Below are positions 11,392 through 44,352 of a stretch of 64,000 nt of DNA, one piece after another. The position numbers and the translations under genes are program-made. The DNA lies in the NCBI GenBank assembly GCA_944392955.1, contig CALXYK010000008.1, positions 1 to 64,000 on the forward strand. The letters are read 5' to 3'. Under the pieces are notes generated by a model that was not told where the DNA came from, made no database searches, and worked only from the letters and a program-made list of their open reading frames with translations. This DNA comes from an uncultured Alphaproteobacteria bacterium. GTDB lineage: Bacteria; Pseudomonadota; Alphaproteobacteria; Rs-D84; CACZYB01. Numbering within the stretch: the stretch's first letter is position 1; the number at the start of each line of letters is the position of its first letter.

Positions 11392-11404
11392 TTTTTGAAA
11401 AGTG

Positions 11405-11433
11405 TTTACAAGTGTTTGAAAAAGTGTTATAAT
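11405..11433 (+). promoter_or_regulatory. Strong promoter overlapped by an AGTGTT direct repeat
   Basis: TTTACA (11405-11410), a 17-bp spacer and a consensus TATAAT (11428-11433). Three AGTGTT copies start at 11401, 11411 and 11423, about one helical turn apart, and cover the -35 and spacer. The 14-nt string TTTTGAAAAGTGTT at 11393-11406 recurs exactly at 40843-40856, at the promoter of another secreted-protein gene. Confidence 0.65.
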
Positions 11434-11457
11434 ACACTTAATTGCACGGAGGAGATT

Positions 11458-13389
11458 ATGAAGAGAAGAACTAAATTTTTTGCTTTTGTTGTATTTGTTT
11501 TGGGTGGTGTTTTGCCATTCGTTCCCGAATTATATGCAGCAAGGCCAAGGTCGTCTACTATGAAAAAGGTATCTGGTAGTTCCAAAAAGAAAACGGTTAC
11601 TTCCTCGGGAAGTGTGGTTTCTGCGGGTTCTGAATCTTCGGAAAGGGCAAATTCCTCTGGCTCACGTGCAACAACTTCATCTTCAAGGGGGACTTCTTCA
11701 ACTTCTTCAACATCAAATGCGGTTGATGAGGCAACGGAAATTTCAAATTTGACTGCGAATTTATTAAGTTGTTTGGTTTCTCCATGTCAGGGGACCGTTG
11801 ATTATGAACGTTGTTTTAAAACTTCTAATATTGATATATATTTATCTTCTACACAGGAATGTCAGGATTATTTAGATGATGCATCGTCAGATACGGTAAG
11901 GGTTTTAGCAAAAAGTAATGTAACCTCTAAAATTAAGGGGTATTTAACCGAATATTGTGAAGCCGCAGGTGGATATTTGGATGGAACAACATGTAAATTT
12001 GATGTTTATTATTATGCAAAATCTCCGGATGGGGCACATTCTGTAAAAAAATCAAAGACTTATTCTATGGGAAACACGGTTACCTGTGATCCAACATATT
12101 TCGGACTTAGCCAAACTGATTTGGAATACAAAGAAGAAATGACAACAGAACAAAAAATGCAACTTATTACTGCGGGTATTGAGGCGGGAACTGGGGCTAT
12201 TAACCTTGCGGTAAAAGGTATTGGAATGATAAATGCCAAAAACGAATTGCGACAGAAAAACCGAATAATTGGTGATATATGGTATAAGTTTGATGGAAAA
12301 GATTTGGTAGAGGTTTGTAAGGTAAGGGAATATAACTATTGTGAAAATGATGATGGTTGTAGCAAATCGGAAATAAAAAAATTAAAGGCGAAAGACCCCA
12401 ACTGGACGGAGGGAACCGATGAAAATGGTGCAGTTTATTTAAGGGGAGATGAAAGTGATACTTGTAAGAAAGATAAATATCCAATAACAGACCCTTCTGA
12501 AAAACAGTTATGTTCAGATGTTGATTCATCAAATTTTGAATCAAAGAAAGAATGTTATGTTTATATAGAAAAGGCGACAGAGTTAAGTAGAATGGAAAAG
12601 TTATCCAGTTTAATAAGAAGTGTTGGTGGTTTAGATGAAAAGGCTGTTTGGGCAGCAGATGCACAAAAAATAAAATCAAGGTATTTAACTTTATCAGATG
12701 CAGAAAGTATGCAGTCCCTTGCAACTACTGTTTCTGGTGGTGGAAAATATTGTTCAGTAAGTGAATGTAGTGCAGGCAATATAAGTAGTGCAGAAGTGTG
12801 CTTTGTATCGGGGGAGAATCTATATACACCTGATAGTGCAAAGCAGAAGTTAAAAACAGAAATTCCTACTGCAATTATTGTTGAATGTAAGAAAAGTGAT
12901 AACGTATATCATTGCCTTACATCAGAAGGTAAAGAGAAAAAATGTTCTTGGAATGGTCAGTATTACATGAAGTCGGGAACAAGTTCGGGTATTGCAGATG
13001 AGTATGGAAAGACTGCTTTTGATGCCTTGGATAAACAAGCACAAGGAAATGAAGATCAAAATGATTCTGTTTTGGGAAGAGCAAATAACTATATTTCAGA
13101 TTATAATAAGGTTCGTTCGCAATATGATTCAAATCAGGATGAACTTAATAAACACAAGAAGGAATTAGAGGAATTAGAAGCAAAAAGTGGTGCTGGTGTT
13201 CAATCTATTATTTCCGAAGGTGTAAGCACAATTGGTAAATCTGCTATAACTTTGGTTACCACAAGTATGGAAGCATCTAATAACAAAGGAATTATGACTG
13301 GAAATTGTTATTTGGGTGATCCGGCAAATGGAAACTTATTCATGGTTGGTGGTGAAAGTAAGAAGTTAACCTGGAAGTTATTTAACTAG
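11458..13389 (+). CDS. Large Cys-rich secreted protein, unknown family
   Basis: The 643-aa product is exported. A signal peptide (MKRRTKFFAFVVFVLGG...) ends near ELYA-A at residue 27. Then come a basic Ser/Thr-rich low-complexity region (28-90) and a long domain with more than 20 Cys, often paired (LLSCLVSPC, NYCENDDGC, YCSVSEC). A Gly-rich helix AGIEAGTGAINLAVKGIG lies mid-protein, and a coiled-coil-like stretch (ELNKHKKELEELEAKS) near the C-terminus is followed by another Gly/Ser-rich helix. GGAGGAG before the ATG at 11458 decides the start over an upstream in-frame codon. The layout resembles the two paralogues at 39.8-42.0 kb. Disulphide bonding in the periplasm is inferred; function unknown. 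Confidence 0.8.
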   Translation: MKRRTKFFAFVVFVLGGVLPFVPELYAARPRSSTMKKVSGSSKKKTVTSSGSVVSAGSESSERANSSGSRATTSSSRGTSSTSSTSNAVDEATEISNLTANLLSCLVSPCQGTVDYERCFKTSNIDIYLSSTQECQDYLDDASSDTVRVLAKSNVTSKIKGYLTEYCEAAGGYLDGTTCKFDVYYYAKSPDGAHSVKKSKTYSMGNTVTCDPTYFGLSQTDLEYKEEMTTEQKMQLITAGIEAGTGAINLAVKGIGMINAKNELRQKNRIIGDIWYKFDGKDLVEVCKVREYNYCENDDGCSKSEIKKLKAKDPNWTEGTDENGAVYLRGDESDTCKKDKYPITDPSEKQLCSDVDSSNFESKKECYVYIEKATELSRMEKLSSLIRSVGGLDEKAVWAADAQKIKSRYLTLSDAESMQSLATTVSGGGKYCSVSECSAGNISSAEVCFVSGENLYTPDSAKQKLKTEIPTAIIVECKKSDNVYHCLTSEGKEKKCSWNGQYYMKSGTSSGIADEYGKTAFDALDKQAQGNEDQNDSVLGRANNYISDYNKVRSQYDSNQDELNKHKKELEELEAKSGAGVQSIISEGVSTIGKSAITLVTTSMEASNNKGIMTGNCYLGDPANGNLFMVGGESKKLTWKLFN

Positions 13390-39207: not shown

Positions 39208-39615
39208 ATGATAAATATTCTTCTTGTTCTTAATATTATAGTAGTTGCTCTTCTTATAGGAATTATTCTTCTTCAAAAATCCGAAGGTGGTGTTTTGGGA
39301 ATGGGTGGTTCTGGTAGTAAAAATGGTTTGTTTACGGTTAGAAGTGCAGGTAACCTTATTACTAAGATAACTTATATATTAGCTACTTTATTCTTTGTGA
39401 TATGTATATTGCTTGCGTTTTTAGTTTCCAGAAGGGAACGATCAAAATCTTTTATGCAAACTATGATGGAAAAGGACAGAGTCGAATCTGTAAAGGAGGT
39501 CAAAAAACCTTTGGTTAACAAGATTCCAGAAGATTCTGTTAAGGAAGAGTTGAAAAAGGAATTGATTAAGCAAGAGGCTTTGAAAACAAAACCTGTTGTA
39601 CCAACTTCTAAATAA
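39208..39615 (+). CDS. secG: Preprotein translocase subunit SecG
   Basis: Auxiliary subunit of the SecYEG channel. The 135-aa product has two membrane helices (about 3-21 and 50-70) around the hallmark loop LLQKSEGGVLGMGGSGSKNGLF, then a charged Lys/Glu C-terminal tail of about 60 residues. AAAGGAA precedes the ATG. It sits next to genes for exported proteins, though it is separated from them by a terminator. Confidence 0.95.
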   Translation: MINILLVLNIIVVALLIGIILLQKSEGGVLGMGGSGSKNGLFTVRSAGNLITKITYILATLFFVICILLAFLVSRRERSKSFMQTMMEKDRVESVKEVKKPLVNKIPEDSVKEELKKELIKQEALKTKPVVPTSK

Positions 39616-39760: not shown

Positions 39761-40834
39761 ATGAATAGAAAAATTAGTTCCTTAGTTTTAATTTCTTTGT
39801 TTGTGGGAGAATTGTTTGTTTTTAACCCTGTTTTTGCACAAAGGGCGAAACGAAATACAAAGCGGGCTTCTGGTGGAACAAGACGGGCTGCATCATCCAT
39901 AAGGTCTGCGGCTGCGACTAATGTTTCAACTACTACAACTCAGCAGGAGGTGGTGGAGGAACAGCCTGCAACACCGGCAGTGGTAGAGGAAGTTGCTCCG
40001 GTTGTTGAAGCGGTTGTGGAACAACCTGCACCAGTGACTGAAACAAAGGTTGTTATTGTAAAGGATTCTGTCGATTCAGAATTGGCAAATAATATTAATG
40101 TGCTAAGGTCAGAAGTTTTGAAAATAATGGATGAGGCGAAAAATGCATGTGTTGGAATTGCATCGTCGTTGTCTTCTATTTCATCAAATATGAGTACTTC
40201 AACAGGTTTTTCTGGATTGGGAACTGTGGTAAGTGGAGCTGATTTTACCGCTGATTTTACAAAAAATTCTTCAAATGACGCGGTTGGGAAGGTTTCAAAT
40301 GTGATTGATAAAGGGTCTACTATTTTACAGGGGGCAGCAGGTGTTGCGAATGTAGGTGCAATGATTTCATCTAGTACAGCAAGTGCTAATACCTCTAAGG
40401 TTGCAGATAAAATGGATGAGTGTAATAAGAAAGTAAAGGAATTAAATGTTAAAAAGAATGAATTGGCAATGGAAATAGAAAAGGCAAACCAAAATCCGTA
40501 TGATGATGCAACTATTTCAAAGTCAGAGACTATAATTGAATCGTGTGAGGCATTTAGTTCTGCTGATATGGCGGCATTAAAAGGATTGTCAACTACCGCA
40601 GCGGTTTCTTCGGCTGTTGGTACGGCGGCTTCTATTGCAGGTGTTGTTTCAAATGTTTTTGTTGGTAAAGATTCTAGTAATAAAGCGGCAGATGTTAGTG
40701 CAAAAGTTTCCGGTGGAGTTGGAACTGGTGCAGCAGCATTAAGTACTACGGTTTCTGCTATTGCTGTTAATAAGGCAAAGGCAAATTTGGCAAAGGCGAC
40801 AAAGTGTGAAAAAGCATTTTCTGTTTTATATTAG
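39761..40834 (+). CDS. Secreted four-Cys protein, paralogue 1
   Basis: The 357-aa exported protein has a signal peptide ending FAQ-R near residue 27, an Arg-rich patch (AKRNTKRAS, TRRAASS), a Glu/Pro/Val linker (60-100), then a helical domain with Cys at 130, 221, 262 and 349. Gly/Ala/Ser-rich helices (GAAGVANVGAMISSS, AVGTAASIAGVVSNVF, GGVGTGAAALSTTVSA) alternate with charged ones (DKMDECNKKVKELNVKKNEL). It is paralogous to the next gene: the spacing between the second and third Cys is 41 residues in both. AAGGAG precedes the ATG; the stop is TAG. No known family recognised. Confidence 0.8.
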   Translation: MNRKISSLVLISLFVGELFVFNPVFAQRAKRNTKRASGGTRRAASSIRSAAATNVSTTTTQQEVVEEQPATPAVVEEVAPVVEAVVEQPAPVTETKVVIVKDSVDSELANNINVLRSEVLKIMDEAKNACVGIASSLSSISSNMSTSTGFSGLGTVVSGADFTADFTKNSSNDAVGKVSNVIDKGSTILQGAAGVANVGAMISSSTASANTSKVADKMDECNKKVKELNVKKNELAMEIEKANQNPYDDATISKSETIIESCEAFSSADMAALKGLSTTAAVSSAVGTAASIAGVVSNVFVGKDSSNKAADVSAKVSGGVGTGAAALSTTVSAIAVNKAKANLAKATKCEKAFSVLY

Positions 40835-40844
40835 AAAATTTGTT

Positions 40845-40873
40845 TTGAAAAGTGTTCGTTTTTGTGATATTAT
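40845..40873 (+). promoter_or_regulatory. Promoter of the second secreted paralogue
   Basis: TTGAAA (40845-40850), a 17-bp spacer and TATTAT (40868-40873). The 14-nt TTTTGAAAAGTGTT around the -35 (40843-40856) is identical to that at 11393-11406. Confidence 0.55.
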
Positions 40874-40911
40874 AAGAATAGGTTGTATAAATTAAAAAGA
40901 AGGAGAAAGTT

Positions 40912-42024
40912 ATGAATAAAAAAATAAGTGTTATTACATTAACATTGTTAGTCGTTGGGGCGGTTACCACGACTGATGTATTTGCACAAAGGGGATTTAG
41001 AACCAAGGTTAGAACGGCTGCTAATAATTTATCACTTACAACTAATGCATCAAAGATAGAGGATGCTTCTGATTATGAACATTCTCCAGGTTTGGATGCA
41101 TCTAATGGAAATACAGTAGAAACACCGGAAAATCCAGGTGATACTGGAGATGGTGGTAATACAGAAACTCCTGTTGATCCAGATGTTAGTGCAACTATCA
41201 GAGAATTAAAAAATCAAATATCTTTGAAAATGTCTAATGTTTCTAATAGTTGTGGTGGTATTTATAATTCTTTGAAAGATTTAAAGGGATTGTTAACAGG
41301 AACAGCAGTGTCTAGTGGTGTTGGAATAGCTGCTGCTGGTGTTGCTACGGCTAGTGATGCTACATCTGCACTTACTGCTGTACCTAGAGTTTTGGGAAGT
41401 GCTGGTTATATAGGTGGAGTTGCAAGTGTTGCAACTTCGGCTGTGTCAACAGGAACTTCATTTGCATCAGTTGCGAATGTTGATAAATTGATTGATAAAA
41501 TGTCCGATTGTAATGAAAAGGTAAAAGATTTGGAACTTATGAAAGGTAAGTTAAAAGCGGAGATGGATGATGCGGAGATAGATTCTTCTAATGATAGAAT
41601 TGTTAAGAGGGTTGATGAGATAGTTGGGGCTTGTACTGGTGATTTTGATATACAGGATATGAAGGTTATTAAAGGTAATATGATTGCTTCGGGTGTCGTT
41701 TCCGGTGTTGGAACAGGAACTTCTCTTGCGGGACAATTTCATAATCGTGTTACTGGTGCTGTTTTGAATGGTATTACAACAGGAACTTCTGTAATTAGTA
41801 CTATAAATTCAGGTGTTTCTTTGAGTAAATTAGATGATAATATTTCCTTGGCTGAAAAATGTCAAAATGCATTATCTAATGATACAGTTAAGCTGAATAC
41901 TGGAGTTGTTTCTATTACTTATACAGATGAAGAAGAAGATGCAGATGCAGGTAATAAAAATGAAAATCAGGATAATGCATCTGGTGATACATCTACTAAT
42001 TTATCTACAACACCTGCAGAATAA
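40912..42024 (+). CDS. Secreted four-Cys protein, paralogue 2
   Basis: The 370-aa exported protein has a signal peptide ending VFAQ-R at about 26, a basic patch (RGFRTKVRTA), an Asn/Pro/Thr/Gly linker (55-92) and a helical domain with Cys at 114, 200, 241 and 317. It shares with paralogue 1 the LxxxSNSCGG/AKNACVG opening, DKMSDCNEKVKDL, and Gly-rich segments (AASGVVSGVGTGTSLAG-like). After residue 325 there is an acidic Asp/Asn/Glu tail absent from paralogue 1. AAGGAG precedes the ATG. Likely periplasmic or outer-membrane-associated; function unknown. Confidence 0.8.
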   Translation: MNKKISVITLTLLVVGAVTTTDVFAQRGFRTKVRTAANNLSLTTNASKIEDASDYEHSPGLDASNGNTVETPENPGDTGDGGNTETPVDPDVSATIRELKNQISLKMSNVSNSCGGIYNSLKDLKGLLTGTAVSSGVGIAAAGVATASDATSALTAVPRVLGSAGYIGGVASVATSAVSTGTSFASVANVDKLIDKMSDCNEKVKDLELMKGKLKAEMDDAEIDSSNDRIVKRVDEIVGACTGDFDIQDMKVIKGNMIASGVVSGVGTGTSLAGQFHNRVTGAVLNGITTGTSVISTINSGVSLSKLDDNISLAEKCQNALSNDTVKLNTGVVSITYTDEEEDADAGNKNENQDNASGDTSTNLSTTPAE

Positions 42025-42163: not shown

Positions 42164-42568
42164 ATGAAAACTAATTTAAAATTTAAGGTTTGTTTTGCTG
42201 TTTTAGTATCTTGCCTTACGATGTCTACTTTGGTAGAGGCAAAAAAGTATAACAGAGGTGGTTTTGTTGATAATAGATCAGGTGCTTTTGAGGTAATTTC
42301 TGTTGAAAAGGCAAAAGATTCTCCGGATGATAGTTATGTTGTATTACAAGGTTATATTGACAGCACTGTTGGTAATGAAAAATATTTGTTCCGTGATGAA
42401 ACTGGTACTATAAAAATTGAAATAGATGATGAAGATTTTCGTGGCTTAACAGTTTATCCAGACGATCTTGTCCAAATTTCAGGTGAAGTTGATAAAGATT
42501 GGTGGAGTGAAACTGAAATAGATGTGAAAAATATTTCAAAGGTTAATCCAGAAACTTCTAAACAATAA
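42164..42568 (+). CDS. YgiW/YdeI-family (BOF) periplasmic OB-fold protein
   Basis: The 134-aa exported protein has a signal peptide ending near VEAKK (about 27) and a BOF domain: DDSYVVLQGYIDSTVGNEKYLFRDETGTIKIEI, with the late signature VQISGEVDKDWWSETEIDVKNI. Members are implicated in stress tolerance and sometimes adhesion or virulence; the ligand is not established. Monocistronic, with its own promoter and terminator. (Residues are quoted here in segments of the domain at about 50-125.). Confidence 0.87.
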   Translation: MKTNLKFKVCFAVLVSCLTMSTLVEAKKYNRGGFVDNRSGAFEVISVEKAKDSPDDSYVVLQGYIDSTVGNEKYLFRDETGTIKIEIDDEDFRGLTVYPDDLVQISGEVDKDWWSETEIDVKNISKVNPETSKQ

Positions 42569-43500: not shown

Positions 43501-44352
43501 TTATTTTGCCTGGTTAATTGCTTCTAACATTACAGATTTATCAACATAACCATTGTAGAAGTTATCGCCAATGATTATTGCAGGAGTTCCTTGGATACCC
43601 AATTTTGATGCAAGTTGACGAGTTCTTAACAATTCTTCTTCAACAGATGGGTTTTCCATATCTTTTTTCAATTTTTCAACATCAAGACCTGCCTTTTCTG
43701 CAAGACCGAATACTATTGCTTCTATTTGTGCAGTTATTTCTTGTTCTGTTGCTTTTGGATTAGATTCTGGAACCAAACGTGTTGTGAACAATAATTTATG
43801 CAAATCTTCTGCTTTGCCTTGTTCCTTTGCTGCGATTACAGCCTTTGCAGGAATAAGTGAAGGTGGGAAGATTGGGAAGTTTTTAAGAACAACTTTTAAA
43901 TCACTTTCTGTTTTTAAAATTTCCTCTAATGCTAAATCTGCACCTTTACAATATCCACAGTTGTAATCATAGAATATGTATGCAACAACTTTACCATCTG
44001 CATTTCCCATGATTGGAGCATATTTAGAATCATCTTCGGTAATATTTTTTAATGCTTGTTTTGCAGCATCTTGTTGTTTTTGTTTTTCAACTTCTTCTAA
44101 TCTTTTTATAGTATCTGTTAAAATTTCAGGATCGTTTAACATAGCCTTTCTTGTATTTGTACTTACAACCAAAGATGCAGTTGTATAAATTGCAAGAAAT
44201 AAAATAACAATAGGTGCAACAATTGTAGCAAGTATTGTTGTTGATTTCTTTGTAAATGTTTTGTTTGCTATCTTCCTTGGGTAAAGGATAAATAGAACGG
44301 TGAATGCTAGTGCTAATACTAACATAATTATATTCATTATAAGTGTATTCAT
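43501..44352 (-). CDS. DsbA-family membrane-anchored thiol-disulphide oxidoreductase
   Basis: The 283-aa product has two N-terminal hydrophobic helices (about 5-24 and 40-65), a Lys/Glu helical stretch, and a thioredoxin-fold domain with active site CGYC at 132-135 in FYDYNCGYCKGADLAL and the cis-Pro loop QGTPAIIIGDNFYNGYV. It is similar to DsbA-like proteins of the Com1/BdbD type. It would act in the periplasm on disulphides, and the several Cys-rich secreted proteins in this window are plausible substrates (inference). Confidence 0.9.
   Translation of the reverse strand: MNTLIMNIIMLVLALAFTVLFILYPRKIANKTFTKKSTTILATIVAPIVILFLAIYTTASLVVSTNTRKAMLNDPEILTDTIKRLEEVEKQKQQDAAKQALKNITEDDSKYAPIMGNADGKVVAYIFYDYNCGYCKGADLALEEILKTESDLKVVLKNFPIFPPSLIPAKAVIAAKEQGKAEDLHKLLFTTRLVPESNPKATEQEITAQIEAIVFGLAEKAGLDVEKLKKDMENPSVEEELLRTRQLASKLGIQGTPAIIIGDNFYNGYVDKSVMLEAINQAK

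Follow-up and report, generated by a model that had tools for sequence, protein, structure and literature searches.

Two adjacent genes in the window (the whole 64,000-nucleotide stretch of DNA analysed here, from an uncultured alphaproteobacterium) encode proteins A and B, which, judging from their sequences, belong to an undescribed family of Sec-exported proteins with four conserved cysteines. The family is confined to one order of small-genome gut bacteria, where most of its genes outside the window are paired with genes for a variable second protein. This pairing suggests an unrecognised two-part secreted system, and we tentatively favour the reading that the four-Cys protein is exported together with its variable partner and is dedicated to escorting or translocating it.

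Proteins A and B and their genomic surroundings

Protein A (357 aa, 39761..40834) and protein B (370 aa, 40912..42024) are predicted to be secreted and helical, and their open reading frames, both on the forward strand, matched the family HMM with E values of 7.6e-60 and 9.4e-73, respectively, both proteins being part of its training set. Read by eye, each protein starts with a Sec-type signal peptide ending in VFA-QR (MNRKISSLVLISLFVGELFVFNPVFA at 39761..39838 in A and MNKKISVITLTLLVVGAVTTTDVFA at 40912..40986 in B, both on the forward strand). The identity between A and B is 32%, and the description of the two as tandem secreted paralogues in the first-pass annotation, which had been made from the DNA letters alone, was borne out. 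The basic patch and variable linker that it placed after the signal peptide were seen in A, where the linker is rich in Glu, Pro and Val (39839..40060, forward strand) and shows no conservation among relatives; in B, the signal peptide is followed by a basic stretch shorter than A's patch and by a low-complexity linker. B also carries an acidic, low-complexity C-terminal tail (41908..42021, forward strand) that most relatives do not have. Because linker and tail are missing or different in relatives, the exposed parts appear to evolve fast, as had been proposed, and A and B are sister genes on long branches in the tree of four-Cys proteins.

The cysteines lie exactly where they had been reported, at residues 130, 221, 262 and 349 in A and at residues 114, 200, 241 and 317 in B, and neither protein contains any other. 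They divide each protein into two halves, which we delimited by cysteine conservation, alignment of the halves and the HMM, with AlphaFold helices as additional evidence for B. In A, half 1 (Cys130-Cys221, 40148..40423) contains the first Gly-rich hairpin and half 2 (Cys262-Cys349, 40544..40807) the second; in B, the corresponding segments are Cys114-Cys200 (41251..41511) and Cys241-Cys317 (41632..41862), all four on the forward strand.

Upstream of A lies secG (39208..39615, forward strand; Pfam SecG, 2e-16), which is also found directly ahead of the four-Cys gene of one relative (locus L189). A gene for a secreted BOF (OB-fold) protein follows B (42164..42568, forward strand; Pfam BOF, 9.1e-27). 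BOF-type secreted protein genes adjoin four-Cys genes in three contexts, namely the window (42164-42568), locus L188 (7181-7573) and locus L135 (near 5533). On the reverse strand, the gene at 43501..44352 encodes a DsbA-like thioredoxin-fold protein (Pfam DSBA, 1.2e-19), which by its sequence indicates that disulphide machinery is encoded. Elsewhere in the window, positions 11395-13389 encode an apparently exported, Cys-rich protein of 664 aa, which had no Pfam match and lies outside the four-Cys family.

A four-cysteine family restricted to one order

The first reading of A and B recognised no family, and profile and structure searches gave the same outcome. In Pfam and NCBIfam, the best match of A and B had an E value of 0.0085, under the curated cut-off, and the 83 family members produced only weak, scattered matches in these databases. 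PHROGs gave no significant match (best E 0.006), PADLOC matched a Cas5fv model with A alone (E 0.0015) and nothing with B or the relatives, and a PDB sequence search returned no match under E 0.2. AlphaFold models of the B domain (38 sequences, pLDDT 70.7) and of the four-Cys protein encoded on contig C16 of the same genome (83 sequences, pLDDT 72.5) were entirely helical, in line with the earlier description of Gly/Ala helices alternating with charged helices in a hairpin layout. Confidence was high for the Cys-bearing helices, mostly above 85-90, and low for the Gly-rich hairpins, at about 35-75. Foldseek searches of the PDB with the two models yielded no match at E <= 0.001, with TM-scores of about 0.15-0.3. 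Weak matches to STAT, designed bundles and ClyA-type proteins were dismissed as generic helix matches.

One possible role for a protein of this predicted shape is that of a secreted alpha-pore former or translocator: its Gly-rich hairpins would enter a target membrane and give the partner a way across. We consider this very unlikely. In its favour, the models show a Cys-bearing head that carries two Gly/Ala hairpins, the ClyA superfamily recurred among the weak Foldseek matches, and the arms of the hairpins have only marginal hydrophobicity (Kyte-Doolittle mean about 1.0-1.6; Hessa scale sum +4 to +9 kcal), which would permit passage through Sec. Against these points, neither model, at moderate confidence, had a significant structural match to the ClyA-type alpha-pore-former fold, long helical proteins of any kind draw such weak matches, and the conserved charged tips of the hairpins are atypical of inserted segments. 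With arms of such marginal hydrophobicity and with AlphaFold least certain in just this part, the membrane insertion or self-assembly to which the first-pass annotation likened the hairpins stays hypothetical. ClyA, Hbl and Ahl resemble the four-Cys family in their long helices and in having a hairpin of hydrophobic helices; the family differs from them in its two hairpins and four cysteines.

Sequence identity within the family is mostly 25-40%, yet the cysteines are strongly conserved. Over 57 paralogues, the four cysteines, in order, are conserved in 94, 89, 96 and 100%, and all four are invariant in an alignment of 83 sequences. In this alignment, the spacing is 82-167 residues between the first and second cysteines (median 141), 31-44 between the second and third (median 35), and 76-98 between the third and fourth (median 95). 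The middle spacing of 41 residues, which the first-pass annotation had singled out, is exact in A and B, where it falls within DKMDECNKKVKEL and DKMSDCNEKVKDL, respectively, but is peculiar to this pair. Thus, of the expectation that the cysteine arrangement would recur in relatives, the near-invariance of the four residues stood and the constancy of their spacing did not.

The two halves of the domain resemble each other. When profiles of half 1 and half 2 were compared, 119 columns aligned with a probability of 98% (E 1e-13), placing the first cysteine on the third and the second on the fourth. Column-shuffled halves reached a probability of at most 0.3%. Reversed half 2 still gave 94.6%, with a score of 50 versus 83 for the true half 2, indicating that much of the match score comes from a near-palindromic block layout. 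Because this block order makes the profile score alone overstate the case for duplication, split genes weigh most. Some relatives carry the halves as neighbouring genes 2-4 bp apart (L051, 334 and 192 aa; L056, 348 and 184 aa), and in the window's own genome contig C4 has an overlapping split copy. Each of the two products in L051 retains its own Cys pair, which favours bonds within halves. The four-Cys domain therefore likely arose by tandem duplication of one half, as far as sequence comparison can tell.

The window's own genome (915 kb, 17 contigs) contains, besides A and B, four-Cys genes on contigs C10 (388 aa) and C16 (298 aa) and a split copy on contig C4, where overlapping genes encode 612 and 166 aa. 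The split C4 pair (locus L185, 4456-6745) lies beside an apparent ftsZ, with genes that look phage-like by eye on both sides. Searching with a single protein revealed relatives in 30 of 59 related genomes, a few weak ones being false; matches to ribosomal protein S1 and to an AsmA-like protein (L030, L037, L038 and L040) were judged false and excluded. In a profile search, 148 of 201 genomes of the order matched, with up to eleven match places per genome; since one protein can yield more than one place, copies are fewer than places. Among 289 genomes drawn from the class, two matched, the own genome and one more of the same order, and among 299 drawn from the phylum, the own genome alone matched. 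These counts confirm the suspected lineage-restricted, multi-copy family, with no match outside the order in either draw. Plasmid records gave no four-Cys match, and a four-Cys gene was found on two viral contigs. The named records with four-Cys loci are gut-type MAGs, mostly labelled Alphaproteobacteria, and record titles mention ruminant, deer and horse gut samples.

Coupling to a variable exported partner

For the analysis of gene neighbourhoods, loci were fetched via conserved peptides of closer relatives, as the full alignment had no pattern that was conserved enough. In f5, a large bacterial family of the order, 58 of 59 four-Cys copies have a same-strand ORF located -45..40 bp downstream, compared with 200 of 664 other ORFs in those loci (30%; Fisher p 5e-19). 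Although shared ancestry of the loci makes this p value overstate the significance, the contrast between 58/59 and 30% is still plain. A crude signal-peptide pattern was present in 56 of 58 partners versus 127 of 683 other ORFs, and in 62 of 74 members of the four-Cys family. In f1, the window's own bacterial family, the coupled gene is usually upstream of the four-Cys gene, as in the own genome on C10 (partner of 244 aa, gap 20) and C16 (364 aa, gap 26). Thus, gene order differs, with the partner 3′ in f5 and 5′ in several f1 copies, but the association persists. A four-Cys gene and a partner gene also overlap by one base on a viral contig (L193, 4611-6913), where the surrounding genes appear phage-like from their names, read by eye. 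About half of the f1 copies examined, including A and B, have no coupled gene within 60 bp.

Alternatively, family members could be structural or self-assembling proteins of the envelope or surface, their hairpins packing into oligomers on which the partners are displayed as passengers. A plain scaffold would hardly account for a coupling to one partner gene that is nearly universal in f5. The hairpins are rich in small residues, each small genome holds several copies, and partnerless copies exist, A and B with their linker extensions among them, all of which would suit such a role. Foldseek also found no structural relative, and we regard this explanation as unlikely.

The partners are 207 to 1074 aa long and diverse. 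Most of the 58 have no known domain; Pfam identified trypsin-like domains in eight and Tlde1/YkuD domains in five, the latter matching PF10908 Tlde1_dom (best 2.4e-9), with a predicted catalytic activity. An HExxH motif in the L174 partner and the lysozyme-like look of the L122 partner are by-eye readings, and Pfam was empty for both. In f1, an apparently exported ankyrin-repeat protein is encoded directly upstream of a four-Cys gene (L169, 4898-5722). The idea that all partners share one N-terminal module was dropped, since profile comparison links some types only; trypsin-like and Tlde1/YkuD partners do not have the module, except in L173.

On the four-Cys tree, partner types, which were sorted by hand from sequence, group together: 21 changes were counted versus 48.2 after shuffling, and none of 200 shuffles did as well. 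Such clustering is expected if the pairs are inherited together. When the N-terminal module of partner type X was searched in 190 genomes, 13 genes were found, each touching a four-Cys gene or lying <=6 bp from it. In 12 type X pairs, four-Cys divergence tracked divergence in the N-terminal module of the partner (rho 0.50, p 0.002, partial 0.44) and was linked more weakly to the variable C-terminus (partial 0.16), with the qualifications that numbers are small and shared species history may contribute. In type Y (8 pairs), four-Cys divergence does not distinguish the N-terminus of the partner from its C-terminus.

These patterns bear on whether the four-Cys protein is instead an inhibitor or immunity protein that shields the producer's envelope from a protease or peptidoglycan-acting partner until release. 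The trypsin-like and Tlde1/YkuD partners would fit, and so would the position of the four-Cys gene in f5, where it is nearly always present and translated first. A third coupled gene follows 13 of 56 partners, a share under the 30% background, and a separate immunity gene downstream of the partner is thus not the rule. On the other side, one conserved family adjoins many unrelated partner types, many of them with no recognisable toxic domain; in type X, divergence of the four-Cys protein goes with the constant N-terminal module more than with the C-terminus; and partnerless copies persist. An immunity function is improbable in our assessment.

A candidate escort role and export route

In the escort reading, the four-Cys protein would be the constant half of a two-gene unit in most lineages, and the other half would be variable and exported. 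Each protein would consist of two similar halves, each built as helix-Cys, Gly-rich hairpin and Cys-helix. The Cys-bearing helices would probably form a compact head from which the two Gly-rich helical hairpins project, and we infer one disulphide per half. If gene pairing reflects physical partnership of the products, the constant protein may act as a dedicated escort of its partner, whether as steric chaperone, carrier or envelope translocator. The pairing in f5, the adjacency in type X, the clustering on the tree, the persistence across gene orders, the N-terminal tracking and the viral pair all argue for this role. The partnerless A and B and about half of f1, the non-universal N-terminal module, the lack of separation in type Y, the absence of a dedicated machine and the low-confidence hairpins argue against it. 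As A and B are a partnerless tandem pair, the role assigned to them is an extrapolation from their relatives; it may since have shifted, for instance towards serving partners encoded elsewhere.

Known systems offer partial parallels. In type VII secretion, LXG toxins have a helical N-terminal part and are encoded beside Lap, a constant helical protein; the arrangement of a constant helical gene adjoining a variable toxin gene is similar, but here both proteins have Sec-type signal peptides and Cys pairs. Lif steric foldases are helical, dedicated folding partners encoded beside exported lipases, again resembling the layout described here. Unlike the four-Cys protein with its diverse partners, Lif is membrane-anchored and serves one enzyme family. 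Five partners share the Tlde1_dom (L,D-transpeptidase fold) with the type VI effector Tlde1. They differ from it in carrying Sec-type signal peptides, and VipA was found in none of 21 genomes of the order, with an E. coli control genome positive, giving no sign of a type VI system.

No dedicated machine is encoded alongside the four-Cys/partner pair. The own genome has TcpQ, secretin, PilO, T2SSE, T2SSF and PilS genes of a type IVb pilus, TcpQ occurs in 183 of 190 genomes of the order, and VirB8/9/10-type genes are present in the order. In the own genome, a pilus operon together with VirB8/CagX/TrbI genes was observed at L195 (5720-13161; contig C10, about 101.7-109.2 kb) and L196 (4592-9105). 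Two cassettes clearly lie directly behind TcpQ and secretin genes (L211, 2901-5278; L212, 3226-5597), and others are at sites unrelated to pilus genes. TcpF is recognised through its N terminus, as described in PMC9565799. Like the four-Cys pair, TcpF and CofJ are soluble, Sec-exported proteins of bacteria with a type IVb pilus; unlike them, the pair shows no apparent sequence kinship to these proteins and its cassettes rarely adjoin pilus genes. TcpF-like release through the pilus may thus be regarded as a lead, drawn from the presence of the machine and the two cassettes, and with only two clear pilus-adjacent cases the link by position remains at that level.

Taken to its full extent, the escort reading would describe a Sec-dependent constant/variable system in which a duplicated, disulphide-stapled helical protein is indispensable as the escort or translocator of many unrelated exported effectors across an order of gut alphaproteobacteria, with some copies borne by prophages. 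We consider this possible and rather doubtful. What is new here is the protein family and its gene pairing, and the mechanism may turn out to be a variation on an escort or immunity principle that is already known. A family that occupies several places in a 0.9 Mb genome and is tied to changing exported proteins represents a heavy investment. The four-Cys/partner pair may be the main exported interaction module of this lineage of uncultured, small-genome gut bacteria, and the constant gene would serve as a marker for locating new exported enzymes or effectors.
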